Shown here: positions 31,400 to 62,536 of the stretch, piece after piece
Position numbering within the stretch: position 1 is the stretch's first letter
Layout: each line of letters begins with the position of its first letter
DNA from: a virus
Length of the DNA: 64,000 nucleotides
Strand: one strand, 5' to 3'
IMG/VR virus record: IMGVR_UViG_3300027963_000035
Span: 62,001-126,000 of that record
Position numbers and translations under genes: made by a program
The notes under the pieces: generated by a model
Database searches by the model: none
What the model saw: only the letters and a program-made list of their open reading frames with translations
What the model was told of the DNA's origin: nothing

Positions 31400-32083
31400 A
31401 TGAAAAAATTCATCGAGTGGGTTGAAGCAAACGAATCATTTTTTGGTAATCTTGCAACTGATATTGGTAAGATCGGAGGTATAGTTGCAAATACGATTCA
31501 AGGAAAAGAAAATGATCTACACAATGTTATGCGAGGAGATATTGTAAAAACTCCTCAAGGACAAAGAACTGTTGGTGGAATTAAAAATACAATTGTCAAT
31601 CCTTTGAAATATGGTGCATGTGGCGGAAGATCTTGTAGTAGAGGATCGGCCCCATCCTATGACTTTGACAGTGTGGATACTTCCCAGGGACATCAGCAGC
31701 TAGTTAACATCAAAGAAGCAGCTGTTTTTATCGAACAAAATACATATAACAGATTCATAGAAGAAAGAAAGTTAGAATCTAAAGTAAAATATCTTCCGCA
31801 AGAACTTGCGATACATGTTCATATACAAGGAGACTCTTCAACTGTAGGAAGTATCGAGGCCCTTGTTCAAAAGATTTATAATGAACTTAAAATAGATCCT
31901 TCTGTTAAATACGAACCTAATCTAATAACTGTAGGCCAGCAATTAGTTAAAAATAAAAAATCTGGTATTACAATCAACATACCAGCAGCAAAAACTGGCA
32001 GTTCTAGGCCTATAGCAACGCCGCCAAGTGTTGGTGTTGGTGCCGCCGCAGCCAGAAGACGAGATGCTGCCCGTAGACGATAA
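31400..32083 (+). CDS. virion protein with capsid-targeting-like N-terminus
   Basis: A 227-residue protein of unknown function. It begins MKKFIEWVEANESFFGN, which matches the tag form F-x-x-W-V-x-x-x-E followed by a small residue that recurs in this window and resembles the T4 prohead targeting peptide. The middle has helices and a Cys-containing loop (GACGGRSC). The C-terminal tail is Ala/Arg-rich (AAAARRRDAARRR), suited to DNA binding. Packaged, DNA-bound internal proteins of T4 have this layout (tag plus basic body). It is transcribed divergently from the tape measure. Confidence 0.55.
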   Translation: MKKFIEWVEANESFFGNLATDIGKIGGIVANTIQGKENDLHNVMRGDIVKTPQGQRTVGGIKNTIVNPLKYGACGGRSCSRGSAPSYDFDSVDTSQGHQQLVNIKEAAVFIEQNTYNRFIEERKLESKVKYLPQELAIHVHIQGDSSTVGSIEALVQKIYNELKIDPSVKYEPNLITVGQQLVKNKKSGITINIPAAKTGSSRPIATPPSVGVGAAAARRRDAARRR

Positions 32084-32117
32084 TTTTTATTCAGAATAAT
32101 CTATATTAAGATTAATC

Positions 32118-33809
32118 ATGAATAAAAATATTACCCTTGTCACAGGTCTTTGGGATCTTAATCGAGAAAGCTTAGACGGCTGGGCACAAAGAAACTTTAG
32201 CGACTACAAGGCCAGATTTTTTGAGATGTTGGAAGTTGATGCTCAAATGTGTATTTGGATTCCAAAATCTCTGGAGCAGGAGGTTTTGGATATAAGAAAG
32301 GATAAGCCAACAAGAATATATTTTAAAGAAAATGAAGACTTTAAAACTTGGAATCCTTTCTTTGATAAAATACAAGAAATAAGAAAAAATGAGGAATGGC
32401 TATCTAGAGCAGGTTGGCTTAGAGAATCCCCTCAAGCAGCGTTGGAATTTTACAATCCAATGATGTTCACAAAAATGTTCATGTTAAATGATTCGTCCAT
32501 TTACAATCCATTTAAATCTGATTATTTCTTTTGGATAGATGGAGGATTGACAAATACAGTCCACCAGGGAACTTTTACACATGATAAGGTTCTCGATAAT
32601 CTTGATAATTATTGTAAAATTCAAAAGAAGTTTGTGCACATAACATATCCATATACCGCTAACGATGAAATACATGGCTTTGAAAGAAATGCTATGGCAA
32701 AATATTGCGGTGTTAATTATGTAGATTATGTTGCAAGAGGGGGATTCTTTGGCGGAAGAAAAGAACTAGTATCTCAAATTAATAGCCTTTATTATGGGGT
32801 TATGGAATCAACCCTCAGAGAAGGGAATATGGGCGCAGATGAGTGTTTATTTACAATACTATGCCATAGGCACCCTGCTTTGATTCATAGATACGAAATA
32901 CCGGGAAACGGTTTAGTTTATCCTTTCTTTGAGAATCTTAAAGAATTTACAAACGAGAAGGTAAAAGAAAATAAATTAAATTGTCAATCAGATACAGATA
33001 ACACTGCGCTTTACGTAATAACTTTTAACAGCCCCAATCAATTTAGAACATTATTAAAAAGCATGGAAGCATACGACTCTGATTTTCTTATAAAACCCAA
33101 GAAAAGATTTCTTCTCAATAACTCAACAGACTTGTCGAAGAATGATGAATACATCAAACTATGTGAAGAATATAATTTCGAGCATATTAAAAAAGATAAC
33201 TTGGGGATATGTGGTGGCCGACAATTCATAGCAGATCATGCGGAACAAAACGAATTTGATTTTCATTGGTTTTTCGAAGATGATATGTTCTTCTATTCAA
33301 ATAAAAATGAACCTCTTTGTAAAAATGGCTTCAATAGAATAACAGAGAATCTTTATTCTAAGTCAATGGAAATAGCAAACAAAGAAAGTTTTGATTTTTT
33401 AAAATTAAACTATACTGAGTTTTTCGGAGACAATGGAACTCAATGGAGTTGGTATAACGTGTCCCAAGATGTCAGAGAAAAGTATTGGCCAAATAATAAA
33501 AAGCTTCCTCAATTAGGAACCGATCCAAATGCTCCTAAGACTGTTTATAATAACATAAAAAGTCATCGAGGAGTTCCGTATACAAATGGAGAAGTTTACT
33601 ATTGCAATTGGCCCCAAGTAGTCTCCAGAGAAGGAAACAAAAAAATGTTTTTAGAAACTACTTGGGCTCATTCATACGAACAAACTTGGATGAGTTATAT
33701 TTACCAAGAAACTAAAAAAGGTAATATTCAAGGTGGACTTTTGCTCATGACACCAACCGAACACAATAGATTCGAACACTACTCGGCAGAATTAAGAAAA
33801 GAATCTTGA
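32118..33809 (+). CDS. two-domain glycosyltransferase (HtrL/YibB-like plus GT-A)
   Basis: A 563-residue probable glycosyltransferase fusion. Residues 1-285 match the HtrL/YibB family: ITLVTGLWDLNRESL at the start, then NPMMFTKMFMLNDSSI and DYFFWIDGGLTNTVH. Residues 295-520 form a second GT-A-like domain: ALYVITFNSPNQFRTLLKSM at its start and the metal-binding FFEDDMFFY near residue 387. YibB-like proteins belong to lipopolysaccharide clusters in enterobacteria. The fusion of two such domains is unusual. I infer transfer of two sugars onto fibre stalks or host surface glycan. The start ATG lacks a clear Shine-Dalgarno. Confidence 0.72.
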   Translation: MNKNITLVTGLWDLNRESLDGWAQRNFSDYKARFFEMLEVDAQMCIWIPKSLEQEVLDIRKDKPTRIYFKENEDFKTWNPFFDKIQEIRKNEEWLSRAGWLRESPQAALEFYNPMMFTKMFMLNDSSIYNPFKSDYFFWIDGGLTNTVHQGTFTHDKVLDNLDNYCKIQKKFVHITYPYTANDEIHGFERNAMAKYCGVNYVDYVARGGFFGGRKELVSQINSLYYGVMESTLREGNMGADECLFTILCHRHPALIHRYEIPGNGLVYPFFENLKEFTNEKVKENKLNCQSDTDNTALYVITFNSPNQFRTLLKSMEAYDSDFLIKPKKRFLLNNSTDLSKNDEYIKLCEEYNFEHIKKDNLGICGGRQFIADHAEQNEFDFHWFFEDDMFFYSNKNEPLCKNGFNRITENLYSKSMEIANKESFDFLKLNYTEFFGDNGTQWSWYNVSQDVREKYWPNNKKLPQLGTDPNAPKTVYNNIKSHRGVPYTNGEVYYCNWPQVVSREGNKKMFLETTWAHSYEQTWMSYIYQETKKGNIQGGLLLMTPTEHNRFEHYSAELRKES

Positions 33810-33851
33810 AATAAAATATATTAATTGTTATAATACAAAAAAGGAAAAATA

Positions 33852-34715
33852 ATGAGTGAAAAATTATTGACTATCGGAATGGCGACCTATGATGATTATG
33901 ATGGAGTGTATTTCTCTCTCCAAGCACTTCGCATGTATCACGAAGTATGCAACACTGATCAGGTTGAATTTTTAGTCATAGATAATAACCCAAAAGGTAA
34001 ACATGCCGAACCGGTTAAATCTTTTGTTAATAGTTGGGCCAGAGGAAGATATATCCCATATGAAGAAAAGAAAAGCACTGCAGTAAGAAATGAAATATTC
34101 AAGCAAGCAAAGGGCAAGTATACCATATCAATGGATTGCCACGTTTTATTTCAAAAGGGTGCAATAGAAAGTCTTTTGAAATATTATGAACAAAACCCTG
34201 ATTGCAAAAACATAGTTCAGGGACCTCTTCTTTATGACGATTTGCGAAATGAATCTACAAGCTTTTCTCCGGTCTGGAATCATTCCATGTATGGGACCTG
34301 GCACACAGATCATGAAAACTTGAAAAAAGGTGAGCCTTTTGAGATTCTCATGCATGGTCTTGGTGTTTTTTCATGCGAGACCAAGAATTGGGTCGGATTC
34401 AACCAGCACTTTAAGGGATTTGGCGGAGAAGAAGGTTATATTCATGAAAAATTTAGAACACGTGGGGGCAAAGCAATTTGTATCCCTCAATTAAAGTGGG
34501 TTCACCGGTTTGGTAGGCCCGAAGGCGTTAAATACCCTCTTGTTCTAGAGGATAGAATTTGGAATTATTTTGTAGGTTGGCTTGAATTAACATGCAACCC
34601 GGAACATGAAATGATAAAAGGAGCTTACAATCACTTCAAAGATAAGATACCTGCGGGAAGCATAGACAAGATTCTAAACAATGCTAAAAAGCTGGTCCTA
34701 GAATCACCAGGCTGA
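33852..34715 (+). CDS. family 2-like glycosyltransferase
   Basis: A 287-residue GT-A protein. The N-terminus LTIGMATYDDYDGVYFSLQA and VEFLVIDNNPKGKH is the nucleotide-sugar binding fold of GT2. STAVRNEIFKQAKGKYTISM follows, then D95-C-H97 where the usual DXD would be, a variation that makes activity less certain. A clear AAGGAAAAATA leader precedes the ATG at 33852. It is the second glycosyltransferase of this run, 42 bases after the first. Substrate unknown. Confidence 0.75.
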   Translation: MSEKLLTIGMATYDDYDGVYFSLQALRMYHEVCNTDQVEFLVIDNNPKGKHAEPVKSFVNSWARGRYIPYEEKKSTAVRNEIFKQAKGKYTISMDCHVLFQKGAIESLLKYYEQNPDCKNIVQGPLLYDDLRNESTSFSPVWNHSMYGTWHTDHENLKKGEPFEILMHGLGVFSCETKNWVGFNQHFKGFGGEEGYIHEKFRTRGGKAICIPQLKWVHRFGRPEGVKYPLVLEDRIWNYFVGWLELTCNPEHEMIKGAYNHFKDKIPAGSIDKILNNAKKLVLESPG

Positions 34716-35909
34716 TGTTGAATATATCTTTTTCCACTTATTAACTTTGTTATCAGAAAGTCCGCAAGGAGTTGAAACCTGCTGGTAATTATTTCTTTCT
34801 GCTTGATACATGCTGATAAGATGTGCGATATCTTCTACTTCTCTTGATTCCCACCCCGCTGATAGTAAAGCAAATTTAACTTGTTCTATTGCTTTATCTT
34901 TCATCAACCAAGCAGAAGTTAAAAATCTATCATTGTAAGCTTTTTCTGGCACGTCGTCCACAGCTAAATTATCTAAAGGATAAACTGTATTTAAAAGACC
35001 TGTGTTTTTATACATATCCAAATATTTTCTGTCATTTATTTCGGGATTCTCGAGACCAAGAATGTATTCCCTTTTATAGTTTTTATTTAGATCGTTTATT
35101 TTTCCCATAGATTCGATGTGATCTTCAGGGATGTCTTCATTTCCGTATCTGGCTTGCATTCTTATATATCTATGTGCTGTCATTGGGTCATCTTCAACTC
35201 TTTTTGAGAACTTCCCGATAGAGATTATTTGACCATTTTTAAGATGATGAGCACCACCATAAACATCAAGTAGTTCTGTGTTTTCTCCTTCACTATTTTT
35301 AAGTGGAATATACATTGCATTTATTGTAAAGTCTCTTGATGCTGCATCGTCTTCTAAGCTTGATGTTGCTGAAAATCCATCAACATTTAAATTCCTATTC
35401 TTAATGGATTTTGACAAAGGAGATAATTCAAAGTTTTCTCCGTTAATAACAACTGTGAATTCTACGGGCTTATTTTTATCATCCATCCTACTGGCAAAGA
35501 AACTCTTGTTACTTCTCGGAGTCTGAGTTTCCTCAAAACCATTTCCCTTTAAAATTAATTTAATTTCGCTTGATGTGGCATCTGTTACAAGATCATAGTT
35601 TCTCGGGGTCTTTCCTTTTAGATGATCACGAACTGCCCCACCTGTTAAGTAGACGACTTTCTTTTTAAGTTTTGGTTCAACCTCACCATCTGTTTTATCC
35701 ATGGTGGTGTAACCAACACCTATTTGTGGGCTATTTTCGAAAGCTTTTATAAGCAATCTTAAACTGGGGTGGTTGTCTTTATCGATTACGAATGGTTGGA
35801 AATCTTCTACTCCTGGATTCCTAGCCAATTTAACTTTTGAAACTACCGGAATATTGTTCTCTTTGTAGTTGTTCTCTTTGTATAAAACGTAATCTTGAAA
35901 TTTTCCCAT
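34704..35909 (-). CDS. CCA/poly(A) polymerase-type nucleotidyltransferase (first copy)
   Basis: A 401-residue class II nucleotidyltransferase of the tRNA CCA-adding/PcnB superfamily. Motifs: GGAVRD (residues 90-95), NYDLVTD (D106, D110), then SRDFTINAMYIPL and KRVEDDPMTAHRYIRMQ. The C-terminal half is helical as in the family. The N-terminal 85 residues are extra and start MGKFQDYVLYKENNYKENN, similar to the capsid-targeting tag. CCA-adding enzymes repair tRNA 3' ends; poly(A) polymerases tail RNA. The two cannot be told apart here. A second, diverged copy is at 61304. Its end overlaps the convergent glycosyltransferase by 12 bases. Confidence 0.78.
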   Translation of the reverse strand: MGKFQDYVLYKENNYKENNIPVVSKVKLARNPGVEDFQPFVIDKDNHPSLRLLIKAFENSPQIGVGYTTMDKTDGEVEPKLKKKVVYLTGGAVRDHLKGKTPRNYDLVTDATSSEIKLILKGNGFEETQTPRSNKSFFASRMDDKNKPVEFTVVINGENFELSPLSKSIKNRNLNVDGFSATSSLEDDAASRDFTINAMYIPLKNSEGENTELLDVYGGAHHLKNGQIISIGKFSKRVEDDPMTAHRYIRMQARYGNEDIPEDHIESMGKINDLNKNYKREYILGLENPEINDRKYLDMYKNTGLLNTVYPLDNLAVDDVPEKAYNDRFLTSAWLMKDKAIEQVKFALLSAGWESREVEDIAHLISMYQAERNNYQQVSTPCGLSDNKVNKWKKIYSTSAW

Positions 35910-36279: not shown

Positions 36280-36753
36280 ATGGAAAATCAAGATCAAATT
36301 ATAATAAGTCAAATAGATGATGCAAAAGAATTAATACCTCAAATGAACGTAGACCTTCCGTCCGTTCAGAATCAAAATGATCTCTCTCACATAGTTTCTG
36401 ATGAAGAATTGGCTGGAGTCTACAGCGAGATTCTAAATAATATAAGAGAAGATAGAAAACAAATAGATGAATTTATAGGTAATTTTGCCGATCTCGTAAT
36501 AAATGAGGGCGACAGCACCAGTGCAAGCAAAGAAGCTCTTGTAAGTTTGGTTAAGATAAAAAGCGATGTAGCGGATAAAATGGCTAAAATGGCAGATTTA
36601 ATGACAAGAATAAAGTTAAAAGATAAGGATACCTTCCCTAAATACTTAGCAGCCAATCAAAATAATACAATAAATATAAATTCAGGAAACAATAAAAGAC
36701 AGTTACTAGAAGCGATAAATAAAGCAAAGAAAGAAGCAAAAGATGAAAATTAA
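36280..36753 (+). CDS. hypothetical protein, possible small terminase or head-assembly protein
   Basis: A 157-residue helical protein. Sequence such as YSEILNNIREDRKQIDEFIG and KEALVSLVKIKSDVADKMAK followed by MADLMTRIKLKDKDTFPKYL gives a long amphipathic helical bundle. The C-terminus is basic (NNKRQLLEAINKAKKEAK). Size and helical layout fit a small terminase subunit, but no large terminase is adjacent, so this is only a guess. Its last 11 bases overlap the next gene. Confidence 0.5.
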   Translation: MENQDQIIISQIDDAKELIPQMNVDLPSVQNQNDLSHIVSDEELAGVYSEILNNIREDRKQIDEFIGNFADLVINEGDSTSASKEALVSLVKIKSDVADKMAKMADLMTRIKLKDKDTFPKYLAANQNNTININSGNNKRQLLEAINKAKKEAKDEN

Positions 36754-38053
36754 TACTTTAAATTGGTTTAATGAAGAACTTGGAAATCCAGGCGAAGCCG
36801 CAGGAGGACAGCCTCCTTCCGATGCTACTGGCGGCAATCAGGTGGTGATGCAAAACAACACCTCCGAAGAACCACCACAGGACCAAAATACAGATGGGGC
36901 CCCAGAGGAGACAGAGATAGAACTCCCAAAACAAGATTCTCCGCAAGATTTATCGCAAGAACCACAATCTCCCGACATCCCAGAAGAACAAGAGGAATCA
37001 GAAGATTTTGAAACTTGGAAAATAAGCTATTTTAAAAATCTAGTTAAAGGCGACACAAGTCTTTTATTAAATGATATTCATAAAATCAGGGATTATGATT
37101 TAGAGGCTTATCCAAGAAAGTTTGTTGAAGACAATTTACAGATTCTTTTTTTAAGACAAAATTCTAATATAGAAAAAGCTGGTAAGGATATAAGAAAATC
37201 TATCAGACAGGAATTGGATAACAATAATCCCTCGATGTCAGTTGTCAACCACATCTTCACCTCACTTCAGAGTTATTCTGATTTAACAAATGTATTTATT
37301 AAGCTGAAGGGAACACTGGGCATGAAGAGTGACCTTCACAGAAAATATTTGGCCTCATTATTAGGTGCGGCCCAAGTTGGCAGTGGAGGAAACTCCGAAG
37401 ATATCATTTACAATGAAAGAACATATTCAATAAAGATATCAACAAGATTCAATGAAAAATGGGGAATGATAGATTTAGGAAAATGGTCCTTAAGGGAAGA
37501 CGACCCAGAAAGATTTTTGGAGGATCCCGAACTCAAGAGGCTAGAAGAAGGCAGCCCAGAAGAGAGAGATGTTCTAAGAAGAAGAGTTATCATGGAAGCT
37601 ATTGCAGATAATTTCAAGCAAAGATCTTTCCTCATAAACGTAGTGGGAGTAGATGGAACCGTTTATTTTGTAGGTTTAGATCTCGGAAGCTGTCTAAGCA
37701 CCGCTTATGCAGACGGTAAATTGTCAGTAAGAACAATACAGTCGGAAAACAGTGAGGCTATGATAGATGATGATGGAAATGTTGTTCCGTATGTAGATTT
37801 AAAGATCAAGTATTTATATGAAACAGGGGAGATTGATGAGAATGGATTTCCTAAAAAAGGAGAGTCCGACTTCATTGAGAGGATAGATGGAATTTTATTT
37901 GTGACAGCTCAACTAGATACTCTTAAGCAGGCTGCTGCAAGTTTTCCTGGAGTCATTGTTAAAGAACTTCCCTTTAACGGTAACCCATCAGACTTGAAAG
38001 TCATACAGAGATGTGTGCCCAGTGCAGCTGAAATAATTTTAAGGAACTGCTAA
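36743..38053 (+). CDS. virion protein with capsid-targeting-like N-terminus
   Basis: A 436-residue protein. It starts MKINTLNWFNEELGNPG, a tag-like peptide with aromatic-aromatic-x-E-E and then G. Residues 20-90 are a Pro/Gln/Glu-rich acidic linker. The folded part begins around residue 95 and ends with a beta-rich domain (SFLINVVGVDGTVYFVGLDL, then IDGILFVTAQLDTLKQAA). No known family. The sequence of tag, disordered acidic linker and folded domain resembles a packaged protein whose linker is cut or flexible in the head. It overlaps the upstream gene by 11 bases. Confidence 0.55.
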   Translation: MKINTLNWFNEELGNPGEAAGGQPPSDATGGNQVVMQNNTSEEPPQDQNTDGAPEETEIELPKQDSPQDLSQEPQSPDIPEEQEESEDFETWKISYFKNLVKGDTSLLLNDIHKIRDYDLEAYPRKFVEDNLQILFLRQNSNIEKAGKDIRKSIRQELDNNNPSMSVVNHIFTSLQSYSDLTNVFIKLKGTLGMKSDLHRKYLASLLGAAQVGSGGNSEDIIYNERTYSIKISTRFNEKWGMIDLGKWSLREDDPERFLEDPELKRLEEGSPEERDVLRRRVIMEAIADNFKQRSFLINVVGVDGTVYFVGLDLGSCLSTAYADGKLSVRTIQSENSEAMIDDDGNVVPYVDLKIKYLYETGEIDENGFPKKGESDFIERIDGILFVTAQLDTLKQAAASFPGVIVKELPFNGNPSDLKVIQRCVPSAAEIILRNC

Positions 38054-38063: not shown

Positions 38064-38570
38064 ATGTATAAATTTTTTGATTATATTAACCAATCGGAAA
38101 TGCAGGCTCATAGGAAGCTTAAGATAATAAGCGATCTATTGAAGAGTCAAAAGATAAAAAATAAACTATTTGACTCGGACCAAGAACCTCATATTTTTGT
38201 ATTTTCAACTAATCCCGATACTTATTTTCAAGGAGTTAGAGTATATCCTATTGCTAATTCTATAGCATTCAAGGTTCAAAACAAGACGAATACTCATCCT
38301 TATGGAAAGCCATATCTGCTGGACTTTGAGAAAATGTATAATAATCTCATGGGACAAAAAGATGCAACAGAAGATGACTGTGCAAAAAATATAATTGAAT
38401 ACATATGTGCTGAACTTAAAAAATTCTTCACTATGAGTGCCAAATATCAATATGAAAAGAATCCTGAAAACATTAAATTAATGGTCAGATCACAAGGAAC
38501 AGACTACTCAACTAAGTTGTTTGGTGGTGCATCCGGAGATTATTCCTCTAAAGTTTACAATGGGTATTAA
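38064..38570 (+). CDS. virion-type hypothetical protein with tag-like N-terminus
   Basis: A 168-residue protein starting MYKFFDYINQSEMQAHRK, a weaker match to the tag (F-F-D-Y-I-x-x-x-E). The middle is alpha/beta (PHIFVFSTNPDTYFQGVRVY, then NSIAFKVQNKT); the C-terminus is Gly/Ser/Tyr-rich (STKLFGGASGDYSSKVYNGY) and may be extended. No family recognised. It is 10 bases after the 436-residue gene and one base before the next. Confidence 0.55.
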   Translation: MYKFFDYINQSEMQAHRKLKIISDLLKSQKIKNKLFDSDQEPHIFVFSTNPDTYFQGVRVYPIANSIAFKVQNKTNTHPYGKPYLLDFEKMYNNLMGQKDATEDDCAKNIIEYICAELKKFFTMSAKYQYEKNPENIKLMVRSQGTDYSTKLFGGASGDYSSKVYNGY

Positions 38571-38977: not shown

Positions 38978-39412
38978 ATGGACCTTATACAGGATGTTAA
39001 AAAAGGTAGTTTAGTTTCTTTTAACTACATGTTCCATAAGGCTGGTCATGATCCCAATCCAAATGTAATGGTAACAGCCGCAGACTCTTTTTATGTTTGG
39101 GGAATCAACGTTCATTATTTAACTTTCCCATATATAAGAAATCTATTACAAAAAAATTGTAATAATATTATGTTTGGTTACCCAAATATAAAGAGCGACA
39201 AATTTGTAACTTCGGCTTTTAGACAATACAAGAAAAATGGTATAAGGTCTTTAAAAAAACTTGATTGTGAATTTGTGTTAAATTTATTGGGATCTGCAAG
39301 GGCTCTCACTCCGGGAGAAGTTGAGGCTATAAGAAATACAATTAATGATCAAGTGAATCAGGCCATTAATCAAGTATCTGCGTTGAATCCCAATTCTAAT
39401 ATTTTAAGATAA
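38978..39412 (+). CDS. hypothetical phage protein
   Basis: A 144-residue protein with a beta-rich start (DLIQDVKKGSLVSFNYMFHK) and a conserved-looking VWGINVHYLTFPYIRNLL, then RQYKKNGIRSLKKLDCEF, and a helical C-terminus. Sequences with the G-I-N-x-H-Y-L pattern are familiar from T4-like phages but have no function I can name. AAAGGAGA about six bases upstream is a good ribosome site. Its 3' end overlaps the convergent SNF2 gene by 43 bases. Confidence 0.6.
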   Translation: MDLIQDVKKGSLVSFNYMFHKAGHDPNPNVMVTAADSFYVWGINVHYLTFPYIRNLLQKNCNNIMFGYPNIKSDKFVTSAFRQYKKNGIRSLKKLDCEFVLNLLGSARALTPGEVEAIRNTINDQVNQAINQVSALNPNSNILR

Positions 39413-42285
39413 TCGCTAAATGATACCGCTTCCTCCATAGATTTGGAGGCAGCCTTTGCTATTAAATTCTTAATTTCTTCATCTATTTTATTTGCTTCTA
39501 CTTGAGTATCAATTAGCTTCTGTAGCAGCTTTTCATCGGCCTGAACATCTTGGTATTCTTTTCTGTATCTTTGGATAATTTCTGCAAGCTTCCTTTTACG
39601 CTGAACTGCTTCATAGATTTCGGTGTCTAGACCCGGTGCTAGTGTATAATCTATCTTAACGGAGTGGTTGGTGTTGATTCTGTATATTCTTCCCTCACTC
39701 TGCTCAGAGCTTTCAGGAGTCCAATCAAAGTCATTGACGATCATATTCTGAGCTGCGTTGGGAAAACTTATCCCAGTTCCACCCATTTTCATACTCATTA
39801 CAAGTGCTTTTGCATTGGGATCATTTGTAAATAGTTCTTTAACCTTTTCTCTTTCTGCTTTCTTTGTGCTAGAAAGGTATGTTATTACTTTAAAATTAGG
39901 ATTAATTTCTTTTAATTTAGCTGATAACTTGTTGTTTATTTGTTCGCCGGATTGAACGAAGTTTGTAAATATGACAACTTTACTTGCTGCGTAATTGTTT
40001 TCTGATTTTTCTTTATTTGAATTTATTATTTTCAAGGCTTTATCTACTGTGGAATCCACCTTTAGATGAGCAAGGATTTCTCTTGAGGCTATTAATTCTG
40101 ATATTGCTAAATTGGGATCCTTATAAGCCTTGAGTTTTTCTTTTAATTTTTTACTAAATTCTGATGTGTCTACGTCAGTTGTGTATGCATTAACTTCAAG
40201 ATTGGGCATTTCTCTTAATTCATTCTTTGTTCTTCTGACATAGACTCCCGATAGATTTAACCATCGATTTAGTTTCTCAGCGGCTTTGATCTTATCTCTA
40301 AATGTTCCTTCAATATAACTTCCACCATAACCACCGGGCACCATGCCCGCAAAATCTTTTTTAAACTTTCCTTCTTTTATGGAGCCGAGTGGGTGGCCGA
40401 TCATAATCAATTGATTCTTTACGTCCATAGGCTTGTTTGCACTTATTGTTGCACTGGCGCCCCATTTATAAGGTATGTTCTGAGTTGCGACGAGTATGTT
40501 CTGGCTTCTTTTGGACGTGCTGTGTTTTAGTTTGTGAAGTTCATCAAATATTGCTATTTCAAAATTTGTCCCGCTGACTGACTTGACAACATTATCCACT
40601 TGTTTTCCACTTGAAAAATTGTCGTAGTACAGAACGGTCCACTTCTTTGGATTCAATGCATCAGTTGAGATTTCGGATTTATCTCCTACAACATTTTTTA
40701 TCTCATCTACCCACTGCTGTTGAACCGATTTCAATGTAATCACAAGAGTTTTTGCGCCAGGAGTGTCTTGCATCTTCAACTCCGCAGCACTTATAAGCAT
40801 TGCAGTTTTTCCATATCCTGTTTCATCACCAAGTATTGCGTGATGTCTGCCGTACAAGAAGGTCACTCCATCTTTTTGCTGATCATATAATTCAAACTTA
40901 GATTCAGGTAGTTTTTCTTCTATTTTATCTTTTAATCCTTCTGGAACTTCCCCTTCGTATTTTGTCTTTTTGACTCCGCCATTTTTAAGTTTAGTTTGTA
41001 GGATTAGTTTAAGACTATTTGGGTTCTGCGTGTAATTGTCTGTTATTTCAAACATGTAACCGAATTTTTTAAGTGTTGCACCAAAAGATACATATTGTTT
41101 AAAATTACCCCTAACGATATAAGAATAGTTGTCTCTATCCCATTCGTAATTTGGAAATGTGTATTGCACAAGTTCCCTAAGGAACTCTTTTTGTTGAGGA
41201 GATACTCTTGTGTATAATATTTTTATATGAAGTTTATCGTCTCTTCCCTTGGAAGGATCTGTAAACTCTATTCTCTCACTGGCAGGCGCACTCTCGGATC
41301 CTTTTGTTGGTTTTTCTTCTTCTGAAGGATCGTCCGCAGATTGAACTGATAATTGATTCTTTTCCACAAAATCATCTATTGGTTTGGCATCTATTCCAAA
41401 TTCACTGAACTTTTTGATTACTTGGTCGTGAATCTTTCTATCCAATGATAATAAGAATCTTGTTGGGTTTCTTTCGTATGCCATTCCACTTGGAGAAAGT
41501 CCTGCTGCCTTAACCGCATCAAATAAGGCTTTACTTTTTTCAAACGGAACATTAAACTGTATGGCAAGCCTTTTGCCATATCTCTGGGTTTCTTCTACTC
41601 CTATAACATTAACATCTGAGGATGATCCGGTGTTTATTCCCGGGGCGGCAACTGCAGCCGATGCTCCTATTTTTTTAACGCCTATCTTTTTCTCACCCGC
41701 TACTAGTTCCACTATCTCATCAATGACTTCGGGCGAAACATAGTATGTATCTAGTGTGTTTTTATCTTGACTGAAGTATCGCCATGCTTCATATTGATGT
41801 TTTCCAAATTTATTTAAAGTTTTTTGGAGATTCTTTTTTTGTACTATTATCGCTTCTATTCTCCTGGATAGAGCTTTATCTATGCCTCCGGGAATTAAAA
41901 CTTTCACCTTGCCGTATTGTTTAGGAGCATTGTTATCAATTGTTATTTTGTCATCTTCTTGATCATGGAGCGACAATGAGTCTTTTATGTCTTTATTAAC
42001 TGCTGCCTTGATATCTTCATAATGAGTTACTTGGGTCTTTTTATATCTGTTTAATATTGATAAAATATTATTTGCCATTGCAACGGGTATGGTGTCTTCA
42101 TGATATTTTGGATCGCTAGTTATTCTCTTAAAAGACATAAAATCAGGCTTATTAAATCCTGTATCATCATATTCTACTGGGGCTCCTCTGCTGAACATTC
42201 CATCAAATGTGGATTTAAGCAATTGTATGCCAGGACCACCGACAAGATTTTCTTGATTCTCTACATAATTTTTAAATAAACTCAT
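39370..42285 (-). CDS. SNF2-family helicase/ATPase, probably virion-packaged
   Basis: A 971-residue SF2 DNA translocase of the SNF2 family. Walker A is ILGDETGYGKTAML (about residue 490), the DEAD-box position reads IFDELHKLKH (about 580), and the C-terminal lobe has KVVIFTNFVQSGEQINNKL, then MGGTGISFPNAAQNMIVNDF and SEGRIYRINTNH (motifs V/VI). The first 430 residues are a phage-specific domain set with HARP-like stretches. The N-terminus MSLFKNYVENQENLVGGPG matches the tag form seen here. Phage P1 DarB is a known packaged SNF2/methyltransferase protein that protects injected DNA; a similar early role is inferred. Confidence 0.85.
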   Translation of the reverse strand: MSLFKNYVENQENLVGGPGIQLLKSTFDGMFSRGAPVEYDDTGFNKPDFMSFKRITSDPKYHEDTIPVAMANNILSILNRYKKTQVTHYEDIKAAVNKDIKDSLSLHDQEDDKITIDNNAPKQYGKVKVLIPGGIDKALSRRIEAIIVQKKNLQKTLNKFGKHQYEAWRYFSQDKNTLDTYYVSPEVIDEIVELVAGEKKIGVKKIGASAAVAAPGINTGSSSDVNVIGVEETQRYGKRLAIQFNVPFEKSKALFDAVKAAGLSPSGMAYERNPTRFLLSLDRKIHDQVIKKFSEFGIDAKPIDDFVEKNQLSVQSADDPSEEEKPTKGSESAPASERIEFTDPSKGRDDKLHIKILYTRVSPQQKEFLRELVQYTFPNYEWDRDNYSYIVRGNFKQYVSFGATLKKFGYMFEITDNYTQNPNSLKLILQTKLKNGGVKKTKYEGEVPEGLKDKIEEKLPESKFELYDQQKDGVTFLYGRHHAILGDETGYGKTAMLISAAELKMQDTPGAKTLVITLKSVQQQWVDEIKNVVGDKSEISTDALNPKKWTVLYYDNFSSGKQVDNVVKSVSGTNFEIAIFDELHKLKHSTSKRSQNILVATQNIPYKWGASATISANKPMDVKNQLIMIGHPLGSIKEGKFKKDFAGMVPGGYGGSYIEGTFRDKIKAAEKLNRWLNLSGVYVRRTKNELREMPNLEVNAYTTDVDTSEFSKKLKEKLKAYKDPNLAISELIASREILAHLKVDSTVDKALKIINSNKEKSENNYAASKVVIFTNFVQSGEQINNKLSAKLKEINPNFKVITYLSSTKKAEREKVKELFTNDPNAKALVMSMKMGGTGISFPNAAQNMIVNDFDWTPESSEQSEGRIYRINTNHSVKIDYTLAPGLDTEIYEAVQRKRKLAEIIQRYRKEYQDVQADEKLLQKLIDTQVEANKIDEEIKNLIAKAASKSMEEAVSFSDYLKILELGFNADT

Positions 42286-43012
42286 GATGAAATATATATG
42301 AGTTTAATTTGAATTTTGGCCTCAAAACTTTTCTTTTAACATTTTTAAATTTTAGTAATCTTTCCCAATTATGTGTGTATGTATGGAATATTATCGCATC
42401 CATATATTCAAAGTCATTGATATTTTCTGGTATCTTAACATGATTTCTTTTAAAATAATTTTTATTTATATTATCATCATGAACTATTTGACTCATTAGG
42501 AATTCTTCCCTCACCCATTTATTATATCTCTCAAGCCAAACCCATAGTTCGGGGTGGGTTTCTTTTATTTTATTGAGCTTATCATTAAAGTCTTTGTATA
42601 TTTTTTTGTTAGATCCATTTCTAAACAATAGCACGCCTGAATTAATGGGCTTAAATAATTTAAAGTCTGCACTATAGGCCCACTTGTTCTCACAGCCCAC
42701 AATATCTTCTGGGTATTTATTTATTATTTTTTCTATATCATCAAATATAAAAGTGTCACTATCTATGTAAAATATATTGTCAAAGTCCAAATCGGCTAGA
42801 TATTGTTTGTTTGCTGGGAAGTATTCTGGGTCTATGTTCTTCACATACTTTGTTTCAACCATCAATTCTTCTGGAAACATGGTCTCATCATGTGTGCAAA
42901 AACATATTATTCTTATATTTTTGTTGAATTTTCTAAGCATTTTGATGCTATTAAGAGCCATTTTATGGTAATTTAGATTACCGTTTATTATGTAAACTAC
43001 CACAGAAGTCAT
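42272..43012 (-). CDS. glycosyltransferase family 8-like
   Basis: A 246-residue GT-A enzyme. The start VVVYIINGNLNYHKMALNSI is the nucleotide-sugar strand, FYIDSDTFIF holds the DXD metal site (D84, D86), and NSGVLLFRNG follows in the position typical of GT8-like enzymes. The C-terminus is basic (KNVKRKVLRPKFKL), often a membrane-association tail. Its end overlaps the SNF2 start by 14 bases, so the two are co-translated. Likely one of the enzymes that sugar-coat fibres or host surface; acceptor unknown. Confidence 0.72.
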   Translation of the reverse strand: MTSVVVYIINGNLNYHKMALNSIKMLRKFNKNIRIICFCTHDETMFPEELMVETKYVKNIDPEYFPANKQYLADLDFDNIFYIDSDTFIFDDIEKIINKYPEDIVGCENKWAYSADFKLFKPINSGVLLFRNGSNKKIYKDFNDKLNKIKETHPELWVWLERYNKWVREEFLMSQIVHDDNINKNYFKRNHVKIPENINDFEYMDAIIFHTYTHNWERLLKFKNVKRKVLRPKFKLNSYIFHHEFI

Positions 43013-43033: not shown

Positions 43034-44368
43034 TCAAGGACTTCCGCCATCTATATCCCCCCAAACTGGGTAGTTACCTTCGATCACCAATACTTTTCCC
43101 GGAGATCCTAGTCCGGCATTTGATATGCTATTTAGATTTTGACTATATGGCATGGCATCTGTTATCCCATAGCCAGCGAGAGTGGTTGGATTTGATCCTC
43201 CTACAACTCTACCATAATAATCCACTATGACCTTTGAATAAGGGCCGGAAACTAATCCGGGTATGACGGCTAGATCAATACCAGAAGGAGTTACGACTAT
43301 CCTACCCAGAGTTCCTCTGGCCGAAAAAGAATTCCCAGTCCTAGTCAACCCATCTCCAGCAGTTAATTGGTTGGCTCCATTAAACAAACTAAAGACTAAA
43401 TCTGTTACTCCCAAGTTGATGGTGTCGTTGGTTATTAACAGCCAACCAGTGTCCATATTTGCTGTGCCCTCTGACGCAAAGACAAAAAGTCCAGTAGTAA
43501 CATTATTGTTAGAATTAGCGTCAGAAGATCTCGCCCAGGCGCCTATTTTAACATCATATATTCCGTTTTCATATGGAAGAATTTGATTCTTAACCAACAC
43601 CCTGTCGCCAGCTACTAAAGAAATATTATCTATTGTTTGAAGACCGGTTAGATTTATATCAGCCGTTGTTGCAGCCCTGACAGATTGCTTTATATCAAAA
43701 CTTCTTCTTGAATTATCGACATATTCTTCGGTTGCTATTTTTTTATTATTTGAATAGAAACTTCCCGATGATCTTATATCCCCGACTGAAGTTAATGCCC
43801 CGGTTAAAGATAGATGTCCCAATCCAGACAAATTTAAATTACTATCGACAAATAATGGTTTATTTACGGTGGCTGTTCCTGGAGTTACCTCGTGAAGATA
43901 GTTTAATTCTGCTGCCGTCGAATTAACAGTAACAGATCCAACCCTAAAAGTCCCAGTTATATCAACCATACCAGCAAATGTATTGCTATACTGTGAGGCA
44001 AATACATTGTTTTGATTTTTTCTCGCATATTGTTCGAGTATTGCTGACCCGCCCACTGCCCCTGTTGCACCTGTAAGGCTCGACCTGGTTATAATTTCAT
44101 CATCGTTTACATACGCTTTACCTGTTCCGTTGGGCCGAAGGTATATATTTCCATTAACATCCTGAGAACTTATTGTGTTGCCATTTACGTAGATATTATC
44201 GAATTGTTTAGAAGAATAGGGAAGATTGTTCCATCGAGATATTCCATTGCCTGTTTTCTTTCTATTTGTGTCTGTTTCTAGGCCCTCTTCCCCCTCAAGA
44301 AGCAAAGGATTAACCAGTGCCCAGTTAGACGATAATGCTCTTTTTAATTGAATTAATGTATCGGCCAT
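43034..44368 (-). CDS. tail fibre protein
   Basis: A 444-residue phage fibre. The N-terminus (MADTLIQLKRALSSNWALVN, then LLLEGEEGLETDTNRKKTGN) is the fibre-attachment module found in many phage fibres. The middle is strongly beta-helical (DINLTGLQTIDNISLVAGDR and VLVKNQILPYENGIYDV, the typical virion fibre repeat), and the end is GLVSGPYSKVIVDYYGRVVG followed by AGYGITDAM, a common fibre C-terminal domain. It is flanked by glycosyltransferases, in line with a modified fibre. AAAGGT lies upstream of the start. Confidence 0.85.
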   Translation of the reverse strand: MADTLIQLKRALSSNWALVNPLLLEGEEGLETDTNRKKTGNGISRWNNLPYSSKQFDNIYVNGNTISSQDVNGNIYLRPNGTGKAYVNDDEIITRSSLTGATGAVGGSAILEQYARKNQNNVFASQYSNTFAGMVDITGTFRVGSVTVNSTAAELNYLHEVTPGTATVNKPLFVDSNLNLSGLGHLSLTGALTSVGDIRSSGSFYSNNKKIATEEYVDNSRRSFDIKQSVRAATTADINLTGLQTIDNISLVAGDRVLVKNQILPYENGIYDVKIGAWARSSDANSNNNVTTGLFVFASEGTANMDTGWLLITNDTINLGVTDLVFSLFNGANQLTAGDGLTRTGNSFSARGTLGRIVVTPSGIDLAVIPGLVSGPYSKVIVDYYGRVVGGSNPTTLAGYGITDAMPYSQNLNSISNAGLGSPGKVLVIEGNYPVWGDIDGGSP

Positions 44369-44385
44369 TTTTACCTTTCAGAATC

Positions 44386-44398
44386 TAAAATATATAGT
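44386..44398 (+). promoter_or_regulatory. candidate late-type promoter box
   Basis: Reads TAAAATATATAGT between the divergent fibre gene and the plus-strand fusion gene at 44443. Its last bases ATATATAGT match the boxes at 36266 and 49638. Orientation suits the fusion gene, leaving a leader of about 44 bases. Confidence 0.3.
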
Positions 44399-44442
44399 TG
44401 TATTTTTCTTTAAAAATAATTAATAAGTAACTAATATAATTT

Positions 44443-47950: not shown

Positions 47951-47981
47951 TATTTTAATTAGTTCTGCATATATAATTATT

Positions 47982-48302
47982 ATGAACTTCTACAAACTAA
48001 ACAAATTGATAAACGAAATGGCTCCCCCTGCTGTTGGACTTCAACAACCTATGGCAACCAATTCTTCCAACGACGTAACCCCAGGACAAAATACACAACA
48101 ACCTGCTCCCGAGGTTCATTCAAAACAGCAAATGAATAAAAACCTAGCTAAGATTTCCAGCAATCTTGGCGAAAAAGGAAATAAATATCAAAAACTGATT
48201 CAGTTTGTGGGAAGAAACCCTGAGATGCTTGCTCTTCTCGATGATTTATTAGGCAACGTCGGTGGCATGCAGGGATCTAAATTTGGAAATATTTACAAGT
48301 AA
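47982..48302 (+). CDS. small virion protein with capsid-targeting-like N-terminus
   Basis: A 106-residue protein starting MNFYKLNKLINEMAPPAVG: F-Y-K-L-x-K-L-I-N-E, followed by a Pro/Gln/Asn-rich linker up to about residue 48 and a helical C-terminus (NKYQKLIQFVGRNPEMLALL). L-I-N-E then a small hydrophobic residue fits the T4 gp21 cleavage rule (hydrophobic-x-E). No family recognised. ATATAATTATT before the ATG has no Shine-Dalgarno. Confidence 0.55.
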   Translation: MNFYKLNKLINEMAPPAVGLQQPMATNSSNDVTPGQNTQQPAPEVHSKQQMNKNLAKISSNLGEKGNKYQKLIQFVGRNPEMLALLDDLLGNVGGMQGSKFGNIYK

Positions 48303-49637: not shown

Positions 49638-49648
49638 TAATATATAGT
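49638..49648 (+). promoter_or_regulatory. candidate late-type promoter box
   Basis: The 11-mer TAATATATAGT, five bases before the ATG of the HD hydrolase. The identical 11-mer occurs on the minus strand at 59381-59391 before mscL. No Shine-Dalgarno is visible. Confidence 0.4.
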
Positions 49649-49653
49649 ATATC

Positions 49654-50472
49654 ATGAATTTTAAACTTTGGCTTGTCGAATCTAGTCTTAGGGATTTACT
49701 TAAGGATGTCCCTCAAAATCCCGAACACCACGCAGAGGGCGATGTTTTTAAACATACTAGAATGGTTAGAAACTCTCTTGATATTGCTAAAAGACTACTT
49801 AAGAAAGAGCAAGGAATTTTTCCCTTTTCAAAAATAAACTTTGATCTGTCTGATAAAGAGGAAAAGATTCTTAAGATTTGTGCTTGGCTTCACGATATTG
49901 GAAAAGCAAGTGCGACAACTGTAGACGGCATTCATTGGAAAGATGCCGCCGACACATCCGGTAAGATATCAGCACACCAGCACGATCAATCCCACCATTA
50001 CGAGCCAATGATAGATAAGCTTGGTTCAATGTGGAGTCCTATGTTATCGGCACTATCCCCTGATGAAATACAAGATATATACTTCTGTATTGATTATCAC
50101 ATGAGTCTTGGAAATGGATCTTTTTCCAAGAAGGTGTCTTCTGTTGTTTTCGATCAAGATGGAAATTATAAAAATGAAAGAAAAGTTAAACTTCTTCTTT
50201 ATATAATAACAATGGATTGGACTGGAAGAATATCTGGGAATAAGGGCGGTGAAAATGGGGCGCTAGACGCCATACAAGGTTTTAAAAATTCTGCGTATAA
50301 ATTATTAGAAAAAAATAAAATTATTAATAGCAGAAAGAAAACTTCCATAGATGATCCAAAAGAATTTATCTTATCCTTAAAAGGCAAGCCGATAGAAGTT
50401 ATCAAAAAAGCATTTATTAATAAATTCGGTAGAGAAATATCTGATGATGAGATTTCTTTAGTTGATTTTTAA
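49654..50472 (+). CDS. HD-domain phosphohydrolase, tagged
   Basis: A 272-residue HD-superfamily hydrolase. Metal ligands: H34 in DVFKHTRMVRNS and the H80-D81 doublet in CAWLHDIGKAS; a further His stretch HQHDQSHHYEPM and CIDYHMSLG supply the rest. The first residues MNFKLWLVESSLRD match the tag form (F-K-L-W-L-V-E then S). HD proteins hydrolyse phosphate esters in nucleotides, (p)ppGpp or 2',3'-cyclic ends; many CCA-adding enzymes carry an HD domain, so functional linkage with the two nucleotidyltransferases is possible. Exact substrate unknown. Confidence 0.78.
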   Translation: MNFKLWLVESSLRDLLKDVPQNPEHHAEGDVFKHTRMVRNSLDIAKRLLKKEQGIFPFSKINFDLSDKEEKILKICAWLHDIGKASATTVDGIHWKDAADTSGKISAHQHDQSHHYEPMIDKLGSMWSPMLSALSPDEIQDIYFCIDYHMSLGNGSFSKKVSSVVFDQDGNYKNERKVKLLLYIITMDWTGRISGNKGGENGALDAIQGFKNSAYKLLEKNKIINSRKKTSIDDPKEFILSLKGKPIEVIKKAFINKFGREISDDEISLVDF

Positions 50473-59476: not shown

Positions 59477-59489
59477 ACTATACTATGTT

Positions 59490-60428: not shown

Positions 60429-61058
60429 TTTAAAAACTTTTTTATATTTATTGTGCAGTTCTTTTTTTGTTCTGACGCTCTTGCATAACTCAGCATCCAT
60501 TTCTGTAGCCATATATGCTTGAATTTCATCTTTAATAACTTTGGGATTATATCCAAGGTCGGTTAAACATTTTTTCATTTTATTGAAATCTTTTTTACTT
60601 ATTGTGTTGGTTATATCGTCCATCTGATTTTTATAAGCCTCATCAGAATAATAAAATGCATGACAAAGCTCATGTCTAAATGTGACGCTGTTAAGTGATC
60701 TGATTCCTATAATATATCCTATTTCTTTTTTGTTTATACTTGATATTTTTCTTAGTATTTCATTCATTATCAAATCATATGGAGTCTCAACAACACTTTT
60801 TTTCTGACAGTCTACAGCGGTCTTTAAAGGTAAATTAAAACCAGACCAGTCAGAAGCATAGGTGAAACTGTCCCCGTGCTTTTTACTATACCATCTATAA
60901 TAATCAAAAATAGAGAATGCCTTGCCGGCGAACTCTTCATTTTTTGATTCATAATATTCTTGGACACGGCAGAATAAATTTGCTCTATCGTAATTATCTT
61001 TTATAATTACCGCAAAAATTCTTGGATATATTTGTTTTAAACTATATTCAATATTCAT
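60408..61058 (-). CDS. zinc metallopeptidase (HExxH)
   Basis: A 216-residue protein with a full zincin motif FRHELCHAFYYSDEAYK (H129, E130, H133), and a likely third ligand E178 in IKDEIQAYMATE, spaced as in gluzincins. No signal peptide is seen, so it should act in the cytoplasm or virion. Family not recognised beyond the fold. It converges on the caspase-like gene, overlapping by 21 bases; a possible regulatory pairing of the two peptidases is speculative. Confidence 0.7.
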   Translation of the reverse strand: MNIEYSLKQIYPRIFAVIIKDNYDRANLFCRVQEYYESKNEEFAGKAFSIFDYYRWYSKKHGDSFTYASDWSGFNLPLKTAVDCQKKSVVETPYDLIMNEILRKISSINKKEIGYIIGIRSLNSVTFRHELCHAFYYSDEAYKNQMDDITNTISKKDFNKMKKCLTDLGYNPKVIKDEIQAYMATEMDAELCKSVRTKKELHNKYKKVFKLFLTRY

Positions 61059-61094
61059 GAATATAATTCTATATGTTTATTGACAAACAGTCAA

Positions 61095-61298
61095 CTAGTA
61101 AAATATATTTCGGTATACAAACCAGAAGAATTGTATTATGGAGCATATTGCAGATATTACCATGATCATAGTAATTACCCCAATTGTGCATCCTCCTGCT
61201 ATTACAAATGATTTCTTCTTCTGATGATTTAAATACAAGTAAGAAAAAAGACAAGAAAAGAAAACTATTATCGGTAACGTGTAAATTAAATTATTCAT
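61095..61298 (-). CDS. small two-helix membrane protein
   Basis: A 67-residue protein with two membrane segments: residues 5-24 (IYTLPIIVFFSCLFSYLYL) and 35-58 (AGGCTIGVITMIMVISAICS), linked by a short basic loop (NHQKKK). It starts five bases after the stop of the nucleotidyltransferase gene, so the two are probably cotranscribed. A second overlapping frame here is much less protein-like. Holin-like topology is possible, but there is no lysis gene nearby to support it. Confidence 0.5.
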   Translation of the reverse strand: MNNLIYTLPIIVFFSCLFSYLYLNHQKKKSFVIAGGCTIGVITMIMVISAICSIIQFFWFVYRNIFY

Positions 61299-61303
61299 AT
61301 AAA

Positions 61304-62536
61304 TTATGTATTATTTCTAAAATTAGAATATTCATCATCATTCATTCTGTCGCTTATTTCTTTTCCTTTTAAATGCATATAATCTTCTGATTTTGTGACT
61401 TGCTTATACATTAAAAAATATTTGATCTCTCTCTGTAGACCACTTATCTTACCAAATTCCATAAAAGATTTTTTAAGCTTGTCGCTTAAATTATCCCTCA
61501 TCCTTATCATTCTTATGATATTAGATTTATTTAAATCATAAGCTACTTTTAGAATAAACGCAACTGTGTCTGCTATTTCATTTGAATATTTTAATTCATT
61601 TAGTTTTGATCTTAATTTATTTGGATCATTATTTTTAAAAATTAGACTCATCACCGCAATTGGATCGTGAGAATCTATCTCTGAGCTTAAATCAACATTC
61701 AATCCGGGAAAAATTGTTGACAATAAATCTAACGCCTTATAGTTCATAATATAATTTTTAACATTCTTGCATTTACTCAACCCCGACAAAAATTCATTTG
61801 CAATTCTTTCTCCACTAACACCTTTTAAATCTTTGAATTTCTCAACTGCACTTATTGTTTTTTGATCTAAATGACTTGTAATAATGTCATCGTTGAATCT
61901 AGAGAAGAATCTAACAAGTCTCAACACTCTAAGTTTATCCTCTCTGAATCTTTCCTCGGGATCACCAACACTTCTAACAGAAAGATTCTTTATATCTTTG
62001 AATCCCTCGCCCTCTCCTTTGTGATCGAGGTTATAATCACGGATTTGCTTATCTTTTAAATCATAAAAGAGGGCGTTAATGTTGAGATCTCTGCGTTTTG
62101 CATCCAAACCCGGGCTGCTATATGAGACTTTATCGGGTCTTCTTCCATCTCCTTTTTCTGGATCGTAAAACTCGGTCCTGAATGTTGCTATTTCGAATTC
62201 TTTTCCATTTATAATGGCGCTTATTACACCAAAACTTTCTCCTTTTGGAAAAACTTTTATTCCATTCTCTACTGCTTCTTTAGAACTCAGTATTTTGATC
62301 ACCTGATCCGGTGTTTGATCCGTTGCCAGGTCAACATCTTTCGGATTATACGGAACATGCTTTTGATGAAATATGTGATACAAGTAATCTCTTATTGCGC
62401 CACCAACTGCGTATAATTTTGCTCCAAATTTTTTAAATATATCACTTAAAATGTCTACTTCTGATGGCATTGGTATGGAAGCACTCATTGCATGGTACTG
62501 TTCTTCCTCTTTTAGTAGCCAATTTTTGAATTTCAT
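61304..62536 (-). CDS. tRNA CCA/poly(A) nucleotidyltransferase (second copy), tagged
   Basis: A 410-residue class II nucleotidyltransferase. GGAIRD is at residues 45-50 and DVDLATD at 67-73 (D67, D69), then KRRDLNINALFYD and RFREDKLRVLRLVRF as the nucleotide and RNA-binding motifs. The C-terminal helical part is long. The start at 62536 gives MKFKNWLLKEEEQ, which fits the capsid tag; an ATG 27 codons upstream would add a hydrophobic stretch that overlaps intergenic DNA. It is only distantly similar to the copy at 34704. It adds CCA to tRNA or A-tails to RNA; the exact activity is not decidable by eye. Confidence 0.82.
   Translation of the reverse strand: MKFKNWLLKEEEQYHAMSASIPMPSEVDILSDIFKKFGAKLYAVGGAIRDYLYHIFHQKHVPYNPKDVDLATDQTPDQVIKILSSKEAVENGIKVFPKGESFGVISAIINGKEFEIATFRTEFYDPEKGDGRRPDKVSYSSPGLDAKRRDLNINALFYDLKDKQIRDYNLDHKGEGEGFKDIKNLSVRSVGDPEERFREDKLRVLRLVRFFSRFNDDIITSHLDQKTISAVEKFKDLKGVSGERIANEFLSGLSKCKNVKNYIMNYKALDLLSTIFPGLNVDLSSEIDSHDPIAVMSLIFKNNDPNKLRSKLNELKYSNEIADTVAFILKVAYDLNKSNIIRMIRMRDNLSDKLKKSFMEFGKISGLQREIKYFLMYKQVTKSEDYMHLKGKEISDRMNDDEYSNFRNNT

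Follow-up and report, generated by a model that had tools for sequence, protein, structure and literature searches.

In bacteriophage T4, the internal proteins IPI, IPII and IPIII carry an N-terminal leader (MKTYQEFIAEA in IPII and IPIII, MKTFKEFTSTT in IPI) with a common M-K-T-[FY]-x-E-F opening, aromatic residues at positions 4 and 7, and a hydrophobic-x-E site for the S77-family prohead protease gp21. For IPIII, one report describes residues 4 and 7 as directing targeting and residues 8 and 10 as directing processing, with the first 10 residues being sufficient (PMC9026906), while others state that this capsid-targeting sequence (CTS) also brings foreign proteins into the head (PMC3012670, PMC9958956) and that Ip1-3, which have only the leader in common, inhibit GmrSD enzymes (PMC12373910). 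Here we analyse a 64,000-nucleotide stretch of viral DNA (hereafter the window), positions 62001-126000 of the 251,265-base virus record IMGVR_UViG_3300027963_000035, the remainder of which was also included. A sequence-only reading of the window had noticed that about ten proteins begin alike and had taken these openings for a T4-type CTS; the observation is confirmed and the interpretation is partly supported. The shared opening, referred to below as the tag, is very probably a T4-type CTS system that has been expanded several-fold; the principle is already known, and what appears to be new is its scale, the enzymes among its cargo and the clade itself.

Two further groups of phages provide points of comparison. 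In the giant phages phiKZ and SPN3US, inner-body and ejection proteins are cut by the phage's own prohead protease, and many head proteins are processed in this way and ejected. Among cyanophages, the virion proteins of S-SM1 reportedly include T4-GC190, a putative citidylyltransferase (PMC3037559). T4-GC190 of S-SM1, the only match in that phage, begins MKKFSAFLNEA, T4-GC190 of S-SM2 begins MKSFFQFLSEA, and the T4-GC190 proteins of P-SSM2, S-SM1 and S-SM2 bear the same tag on an enzyme-like protein. Its reported presence in S-SM1 virions is an experimental finding on a tagged protein that did not belong to the starting set.

The pattern was derived from the T4 internal-protein leader and requires M, one to three residues, an aromatic residue, two further residues, a second aromatic residue and then L, I, V or M. 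Genes were called with a simple script, which covers 73.7% of the record, chooses starts partly by Shine-Dalgarno score and misses some starts and short genes. In the record, 23 of 237 gene starts fit the pattern compared with 4 of 939 internal methionines (Fisher test, 3e-13), and when called starts only are counted, 18 matches stand against the 1.9 expected from shuffled N-termini (standard deviation 1.4, maximum 10 in 2000 shuffles). About 20 further tagged genes lie in the record beyond the window. Megablast of 18 kb of the window against the phage collection found no nucleotide relatives, and the relatives compared here were recruited via the gp21 protein, for which reason the S77 protease found in all six is no independent test. 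These six (G002, G003, G004, G006, G007 and W01, the last being the 595-kb LR756511) range from 136 to 595 kb, several being fragments, and were picked by length from eleven other records; G001, a longer record whose gp21 is 100% and whose SNF2 protein is 99% identical to that of the window record, was excluded as near-identical, and G005, G008, G009 and G010 lay outside the comparison. Each of the six holds 13-35 matches and is enriched, with 24 of 277 starts against 8 of 1487 internal methionines in G002, 22 of 431 against 11 of 1825 in G003, 24 of 161 against 5 of 796 in G004, 13 of 125 against 1 of 595 in G006, 21 of 144 against 1 of 711 in G007 and 35 of 802 against 29 of 2878 in W01; pooled over called starts only, the figures are 127 of 2177 against 59 of 9337 (p ~1e-49). 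The tag is genome-wide and clade-wide rather than specific to the window. From the rates at internal methionines, about 15 of 162 tags are expected to be false, 8 of these in W01.

All ten N-termini named in the sequence-only reading were located where it had placed them, and their status as tags could be assessed with a position-specific weight matrix trained solely on pattern-matched tags from the six other genomes, with 886 internal methionines as background. This matrix supports eight of the ten, namely all tagged genes of Table 1 except the one at 36743 (for each, 0-2 of the 886 internal methionines score as high), and finds more tags throughout the record, where 23 listed starts outscore all but one of the internal methionines. 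The opening at 36743 scores weakly, with 28 of the 886 as high, and is accepted as a tag variant through its orthologues, because W8 is invariant when it is aligned with 15 relatives (16 sequences in all; consensus MxxxxLEDWLxE). The tenth, at 47982, receives no support, since 102 internal methionines reach its score or exceed it; possibly this tag has diverged. In this gene (window 47967-48302) a TATATA box adjoins the ATG, and INE, the capsid-site motif, occurs near the start. Short motifs spotted by eye in an AT-rich proteome full of Lys, Asn and Phe can arise by chance or composition, and the tag is indeed short, was first noticed by reading and fails at 47982. Against such an origin stand the internal-methionine and shuffle controls, the matrix built from other genomes, the conservation in orthologues described below and the lack of enrichment in phiKZ and the cultured phage immuto at similar GC content, and for the set as a whole chance is already refuted. 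Tags at record positions 31349 and 10182 imply starts other than those called (31493-31801 and 10131-10451), and tags could thus be used to correct start calls in the clade. One tagged protein, at record 142656-143222 on the plus strand, has a second tag-like stretch (ESFNSWLINNHPEIMEE) in its C-terminal part.

The 162 tags together have the consensus M-K-[TSN]-F-K-[EQ]-[WFY]-L-E-N-x-E, with the aromatic residues at positions 4 and 7 as in T4. Of 1639 proteins, 66 have an aromatic pair that begins at residue 4, compared with a mean of 3.9 per position at residues 20-80, and Trp, which occupies position 7 in 74 of the 162 tags, is the commonest residue there, which distinguishes the clade from the T4 leaders. 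Among the positions that the pattern leaves free, those five and eight residues after the first aromatic residue (+5 and +8) show a 4.8-fold enrichment of Glu, which drops to 1.4-1.6-fold just beyond. Its maxima are therefore at residues 9 and 12, whereas at residue 10 (+6), the place of the T4 processing Glu, the enrichment is only 1.8-fold. The targeting residues thus agree with T4 and the location of the processing Glu does not.

As with the T4 internal proteins, largely unrelated bodies have only the opening in common. BLAST of the bodies sorts 171 tagged proteins into 140 families (in this and in the upstream and box analyses the record is represented by 32 hand-listed tags, weak ones included), and the earlier statement that the bodies are unrelated holds in general, the exception being two PolyA_pol-family nucleotidyltransferases, here CCA1 and CCA2, which are homologous to each other. 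The tag is mostly kept while bodies diverge to ~30% identity. It fits the strict pattern in CCA1 orthologues of 11 of 17 contigs, the other six being read as variants, and in the 168-residue CCA1 neighbour at 38064 it is found in 20 of 21 contigs, a set in which near-duplicates, a near-identical relative of the window and the record of G006 are counted. Orthologues of the SNF2 protein in G006 and of CCA2 in G007 are tagged; in the G006 orthologue of 58138, NFKNFILSE lies close to the start and does not fit the strict pattern, and several other homologues fit it only loosely. A tagged P-loop kinase aligns weakly (E 7e-5) over its residues 14-147 with residues 2-143 of T4 PseT, and as this alignment starts at kinase residue 14, the tag is an N-terminal addition to the domain. 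The occurrence of 13-35 matches per record on largely unrelated proteins indicates that the tag works as a portable address.

A CTS of the T4 type requires a matching protease, and the search for a gp21-like enzyme, on whose absence the sequence-only reading would have foundered, found an S77 protease at record 41113-41802 on the minus strand (E 2e-28; phrog_207, E 1.5e-49), which is encoded in the same gene cluster as the major capsid protein. Two small tagged proteins (record 43776-44408) adjoin this cluster. The T4 capsid protein gp23 is cut after FLTE; in an alignment of the major capsid proteins the T4 FLTE-A stretch faces L[IMF]NE in 7 of 7 clade genomes, from which we infer that the capsid cleavage site of the clade keeps the hydrophobic-x-E form. 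In the tags themselves, hydrophobic-x-E occurs at +5 to +12 in 96 of 162 cases, compared with 65 (standard deviation 5.5) after shuffling within tags and 61 (standard deviation 4.4) after shuffling columns, and with one tag per body family the count is 79 of 133 compared with 53 and 50 in the two shuffles. The registers are mostly +5 to +8. That the motif is followed by S or G, as had been proposed, does not hold as a rule, the next residue being N in 23, E in 12, S in 12 and G in 8 of 105 cases.

When the pattern is applied to other phages, its two matches among the 224 genes of T4 are IPII and IPIII, and three of the four matches in P-SSM2 are clear tags, one of them T4-GC190. The protease family is present in T4, P-SSM2 and immuto; phiKZ, by comparison, has no Pfam S77 match and shows no enrichment (3 of 295), unlike the clade. 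Since immuto has S77 and no enrichment of tags (1 of 180), possession of such a protease is not enough for tags to be numerous. The scale also sets the clade apart, with 13-35 matches per record compared with the three classical internal proteins of T4 and three clear tags only in P-SSM2, and so does a cargo that includes large enzymes.

Several observations weigh against reading the tag as a CTS. By counts, T4 itself is not enriched (2 of 224 compared with 9 of 991 internal methionines, p 0.63), IPI is missed, and P-SSM2 is weak (4 of 215 compared with 5 of 934, p 0.07). To these are added the immuto result, the failure of the immuto and P-SSM2 homologues of the tagged record protein 17744 and of the immuto homologue of the tagged record protein 45156 to fit the pattern, and the lack of a conserved Glu at position 10. 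Within the clade, the tag is missing in CCA1 of G004, in the kinase of G002, G003 and W01 and in DUF5662 of W01, and the interval from +5 to +12 is devoid of hydrophobic-x-E in 66 of 162 tags. The largest cargo proteins (971 and 1191 amino acids) would need to exit via the tail, T4-GC190 was reportedly undetected in a virion study of S-PM2 (PMC3037559), and no virion proteomics for the clade was found in the literature. The last of these points and the tags that lack the cleavage motif would also suit an address other than the head, for instance the membrane, a compartment for replication or a different phage assembly, for which any conserved amphipathic N-terminal helix could serve. We regard such a destination as unlikely, given that the key residues agree with those of the proven T4 CTS, that the T4 matches are exactly known internal proteins, that a tagged cyanophage protein is reported in virions (PMC3037559), that hydrophobic-x-E is enriched in the tags and that two tagged genes lie next to the protease gene cluster.

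If the tag is a CTS, it would form a short amphipathic N-terminal helix, with the aromatic residues at positions 4 and 7, that binds the prohead core, and a protein attached to a core-bound tag would be enclosed as the shell forms. The gp21-type protease would then cleave behind the hydrophobic-x-E that closes the tag. Once released, the proteins would stay inside the head together with the DNA and pass with it into the next host. The tag would in this way be a portable address for assembling a virion-carried toolkit. Packing, cutting and injection of an early toolkit, as the sequence-only reading had proposed, may thus take place in the clade, and the injected proteins may act early against host defences, because T4 Ip1-3 inhibit GmrSD enzymes and the named cargo has an RNA-repair and ADP-ribose flavour.

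Upstream of the start codon, TATATA or ATAAATA occurs at -20 to -4 in 46 of 170 tagged and 70 of 1505 untagged genes, mostly starting at -13 to -10; motif and interval were picked after viewing the sequences, so that p values are post hoc, and several of the untagged genes with a box resemble tag variants. The box is seen in this record, G003, G004, G007 and W01, is weak in G002 (2 of 24) and is absent from the tagged genes of G006 (0 of 13, compared with 16 of 101 untagged). In T4 the late -10 box, TATAAATA, occupies roughly -13 to -6, and a gene with its box at a similar place would have its mRNA start on or close to the ATG. The boxes thus suggest single late promoters from which leaderless mRNA is made. 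Many tagged genes of the clade have such a box, whereas none of the three T4 ip genes has one adjoining the ATG. A Shine-Dalgarno sequence precedes 64 of 170 tagged and 986 of 1505 untagged genes, a comparison biased by the start-calling rule. No homologue of the late sigma factor gp55 was identified among ten T4 proteins matched at E 1e-4, not all of which are named, and the term late promoter therefore refers to sequence form and position only. One T4 match first read as gp55 is actually the homing endonuclease MobC. The protein encoded at record 240405-242579 (minus) is similar to a large T4 protein at T4 12-2189 (E 7e-27), which we take from its position to be rIIA.

The association with boxes could mean that selection acts on the mRNA, with leaderless late genes sharing codons in the start region and the peptide being irrelevant. 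This is very improbable and we reject it, because G006 and G002 (the latter with a GC content of 0.49) keep the tag with no or little box; across the clade, moreover, the amino acids are retained over GC contents of 0.35-0.49.

The tagged cargo of the record comprises a SNF2 ATPase, CCA1 and CCA2, an HD-like protein, the P-loop kinase (AAA_33) and a DUF5662 protein. The SNF2 ATPase named in the sequence-only reading is borne out (SNF2-rel_dom 44.1 and Helicase_C 48.1 bits, cut-offs 24.9 and 23.5). Both of its nucleotidyltransferases lie above the PF01743 (PolyA_pol) cut-off of 23 bits, with 71.3 for CCA1 and 79.9 for CCA2, and CCA1 departs from the claim in lacking the first Asp of its DxD. 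The catalytic motif of CCA-adding and PolyA_pol enzymes is GG...DxD; it is intact as DVD in CCA2, and in CCA1 it varies, with NYD in the window record, in G006 and in one of the G007 copies, SYD in G004, DYD in G003 and W01 and DID in G002. With Asn in place of the first Asp, CCA1 may be inactive in this record and is possibly a non-catalytic RNA-binding form beside the intact CCA2. The HD hydrolase at 49654 fares less well, with Pfam HD at 13.6 bits (cut-off 22, E 0.086) and NCBIfam HDIG below its cut-off; phrog_6931 alone is convincing. The N-terminal half of that family matches the HD-like protein and its C-terminal half the kinase (record 182372-182863, minus), hinting that the two may act together. 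PHROG and Pfam provide few names for the tagged bodies, and among ten proteins examined with PADLOC, SNF2 gave matches of helicase type and the kinase a single P-loop match.

For the relatives, Pfam families were compared descriptively between 110 tagged and 110 length-matched untagged proteins. The tagged set derives from 127 references of at least 80 residues, with 3 more crossing fetch boundaries and 17 dropped by eye as weak-looking, at least 3 of which are plausible tags. Among the families listed (25 of 27 for tagged and 25 of 63 for untagged proteins, with multiple matches per protein possible), tagged proteins match PolyA_pol (5), AAA_33 (2), HAD_SAK_1 (2) and DUF5661 (2), and once each 2_5_RNA_ligase2, tRNA_lig_CPD, NADAR, NUDIX, ART-PolyVal, SNF2, AdoMet_dc and others. 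The untagged proteins match replication, structural and peptidase families, and also PolyA_pol, RNA_ligase, PARP and AdoMet_dc once each, which makes the contrast one of degree. HAD_SAK_1 occurs in 4 of 8 records, always within ~1 kb of CCA1, and was not found in the window record; it carries the pattern in G003 and W01 and reads as a tag from a second Met in G007, the fourth record being G002, and of five further contigs one carries the pattern. Searches with PF09414 and PF09511 found no T4-type RNA ligase in the record; PF09511 matches in G001, G003 and W01 and PF09414 in G002 and W01. Three matches to PF23474 (Acb1) are all below the cut-off, and bS21 (PF01165) is present in 2 of 8 records, neither of them the window record.

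T4 Alt, an ADP-ribosyltransferase described as packaged (PMC9026906), offers a further parallel as a packaged, processed and host-acting enzyme, here compared by description. The tagged cargo of G002 includes an ART-PolyVal-like protein, which is below the family cut-off, and against the parallel, and against the tag as a CTS, the best and clear ART-PolyVal match (G004) is untagged. The CCA enzymes of jumbo phages have earlier been read as RNA-repair proteins (PMC7824862), and no description of a packaged CCA enzyme was found in the literature searched, in which subscription papers were mostly outside reach. A tentative reading, towards which we lean somewhat less than away from it, is that huge phages of a widespread clade bring along in their virions a ready-made kit for RNA (tRNA) repair and against host defences, directed to the prohead by one portable CTS, with genes often driven by single late promoters and mRNA starting from the ATG. 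The kit would, with the same reserve, consist of nucleotidyltransferases, a polynucleotide-kinase-like enzyme, a HAD-SAK phosphatase, a 2H phosphoesterase, NADAR and ADP-ribosyltransferase-like proteins. We go no further, given that untagged members exist in several of the cargo families and that HAD-SAK is tagged only in part.

The tagged genes of the window and the boxes before three of them are given in Table 1. The protein encoded at 31400 has no Pfam match at E 0.1. Between 34704 and 38570 lies a cluster that is conserved across the clade, made up of the 168-residue protein, the 436-residue protein and CCA1, with HAD_SAK_1 in addition in four records. The AlphaFold2 (AF2) model of the 436-residue protein has a mean predicted local distance difference test score (pLDDT) of 69, with residues 1-85 below 50, and the predicted structure of its 168-residue partner has a mean of 75; neither model has a PDB match at E <=0.001.

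Table 1. Tagged genes and upstream boxes in the window (window coordinates; matrix scores with the number of the 886 internal methionines scoring as high).
Feature	Position	Strand	Evidence
TATATA-type box before ATG of 31400, candidate late -10 element	31387-31399	+	Sequence and box enrichment
Tagged protein, MKKFIEWVEANESFF..., 227 amino acids	31400-32083	+	Matrix score 15.5, 0/886
CCA1, tagged PolyA_pol-family nucleotidyltransferase, tag MGKFQDYVLYKE	34704-35909	-	Pfam E 1.2e-19
Tag-variant protein, MKINTLNWFNEE, 436 amino acids, conserved CCA1 neighbour	36743-38053	+	Weak matrix score, 2.1
Tagged protein, MYKFFDYINQSE, 168 amino acids, conserved neighbour	38064-38570	+	Matrix score 7.2, 2/886
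SNF2-type helicase/ATPase, 971 amino acids, tag MSLFKNYVENQE	39370-42285	-	SNF2-rel_dom 1.8e-11, Helicase_C 1.6e-12
TATATA-type box before ATG of SNF2 gene	42286-42300	-	Sequence
Tagged protein, MLNFKDWLISEGSN, 147 amino acids	48822-49265	-	Matrix score 15.7, 0/886
TATATA-type box before ATG of 49654	49639-49653	+	Sequence
Tagged HD-like protein, MNFKLWLVESS, 272 amino acids	49654-50472	+	Matrix score 13.8; phrog_6931 E 6.6e-8
Tagged protein, MNFKDFINESPV, 273 amino acids	58138-58959	+	Matrix score 10.0
CCA2, tagged PolyA_pol-family nucleotidyltransferase, tag MKFKNWLLKEEE	61304-62536	-	Pfam E 2.6e-22, phrog_2244 E 4.5e-38; matrix score 17.8, 0/886

If the tag is a CTS, the injected proteome of uncultured huge phages would be predictable from genomes by a one-line pattern, and protein families numbering well over a hundred, most of them without a name, would become candidate effectors of the first minute of infection. 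The internal-protein principle of T4, as set out in earlier work (PMC3012670, PMC12373910), would no longer be confined to a few anti-restriction proteins and would extend to a large cargo, rich in enzymes and with RNA-repair families among them. Should the cargo include an RNA-repair kit, damage inflicted on host RNA by defence systems could be mended before phage gene expression. The tags of the clade would also constitute a large natural set for mapping which features a prohead core recognizes.

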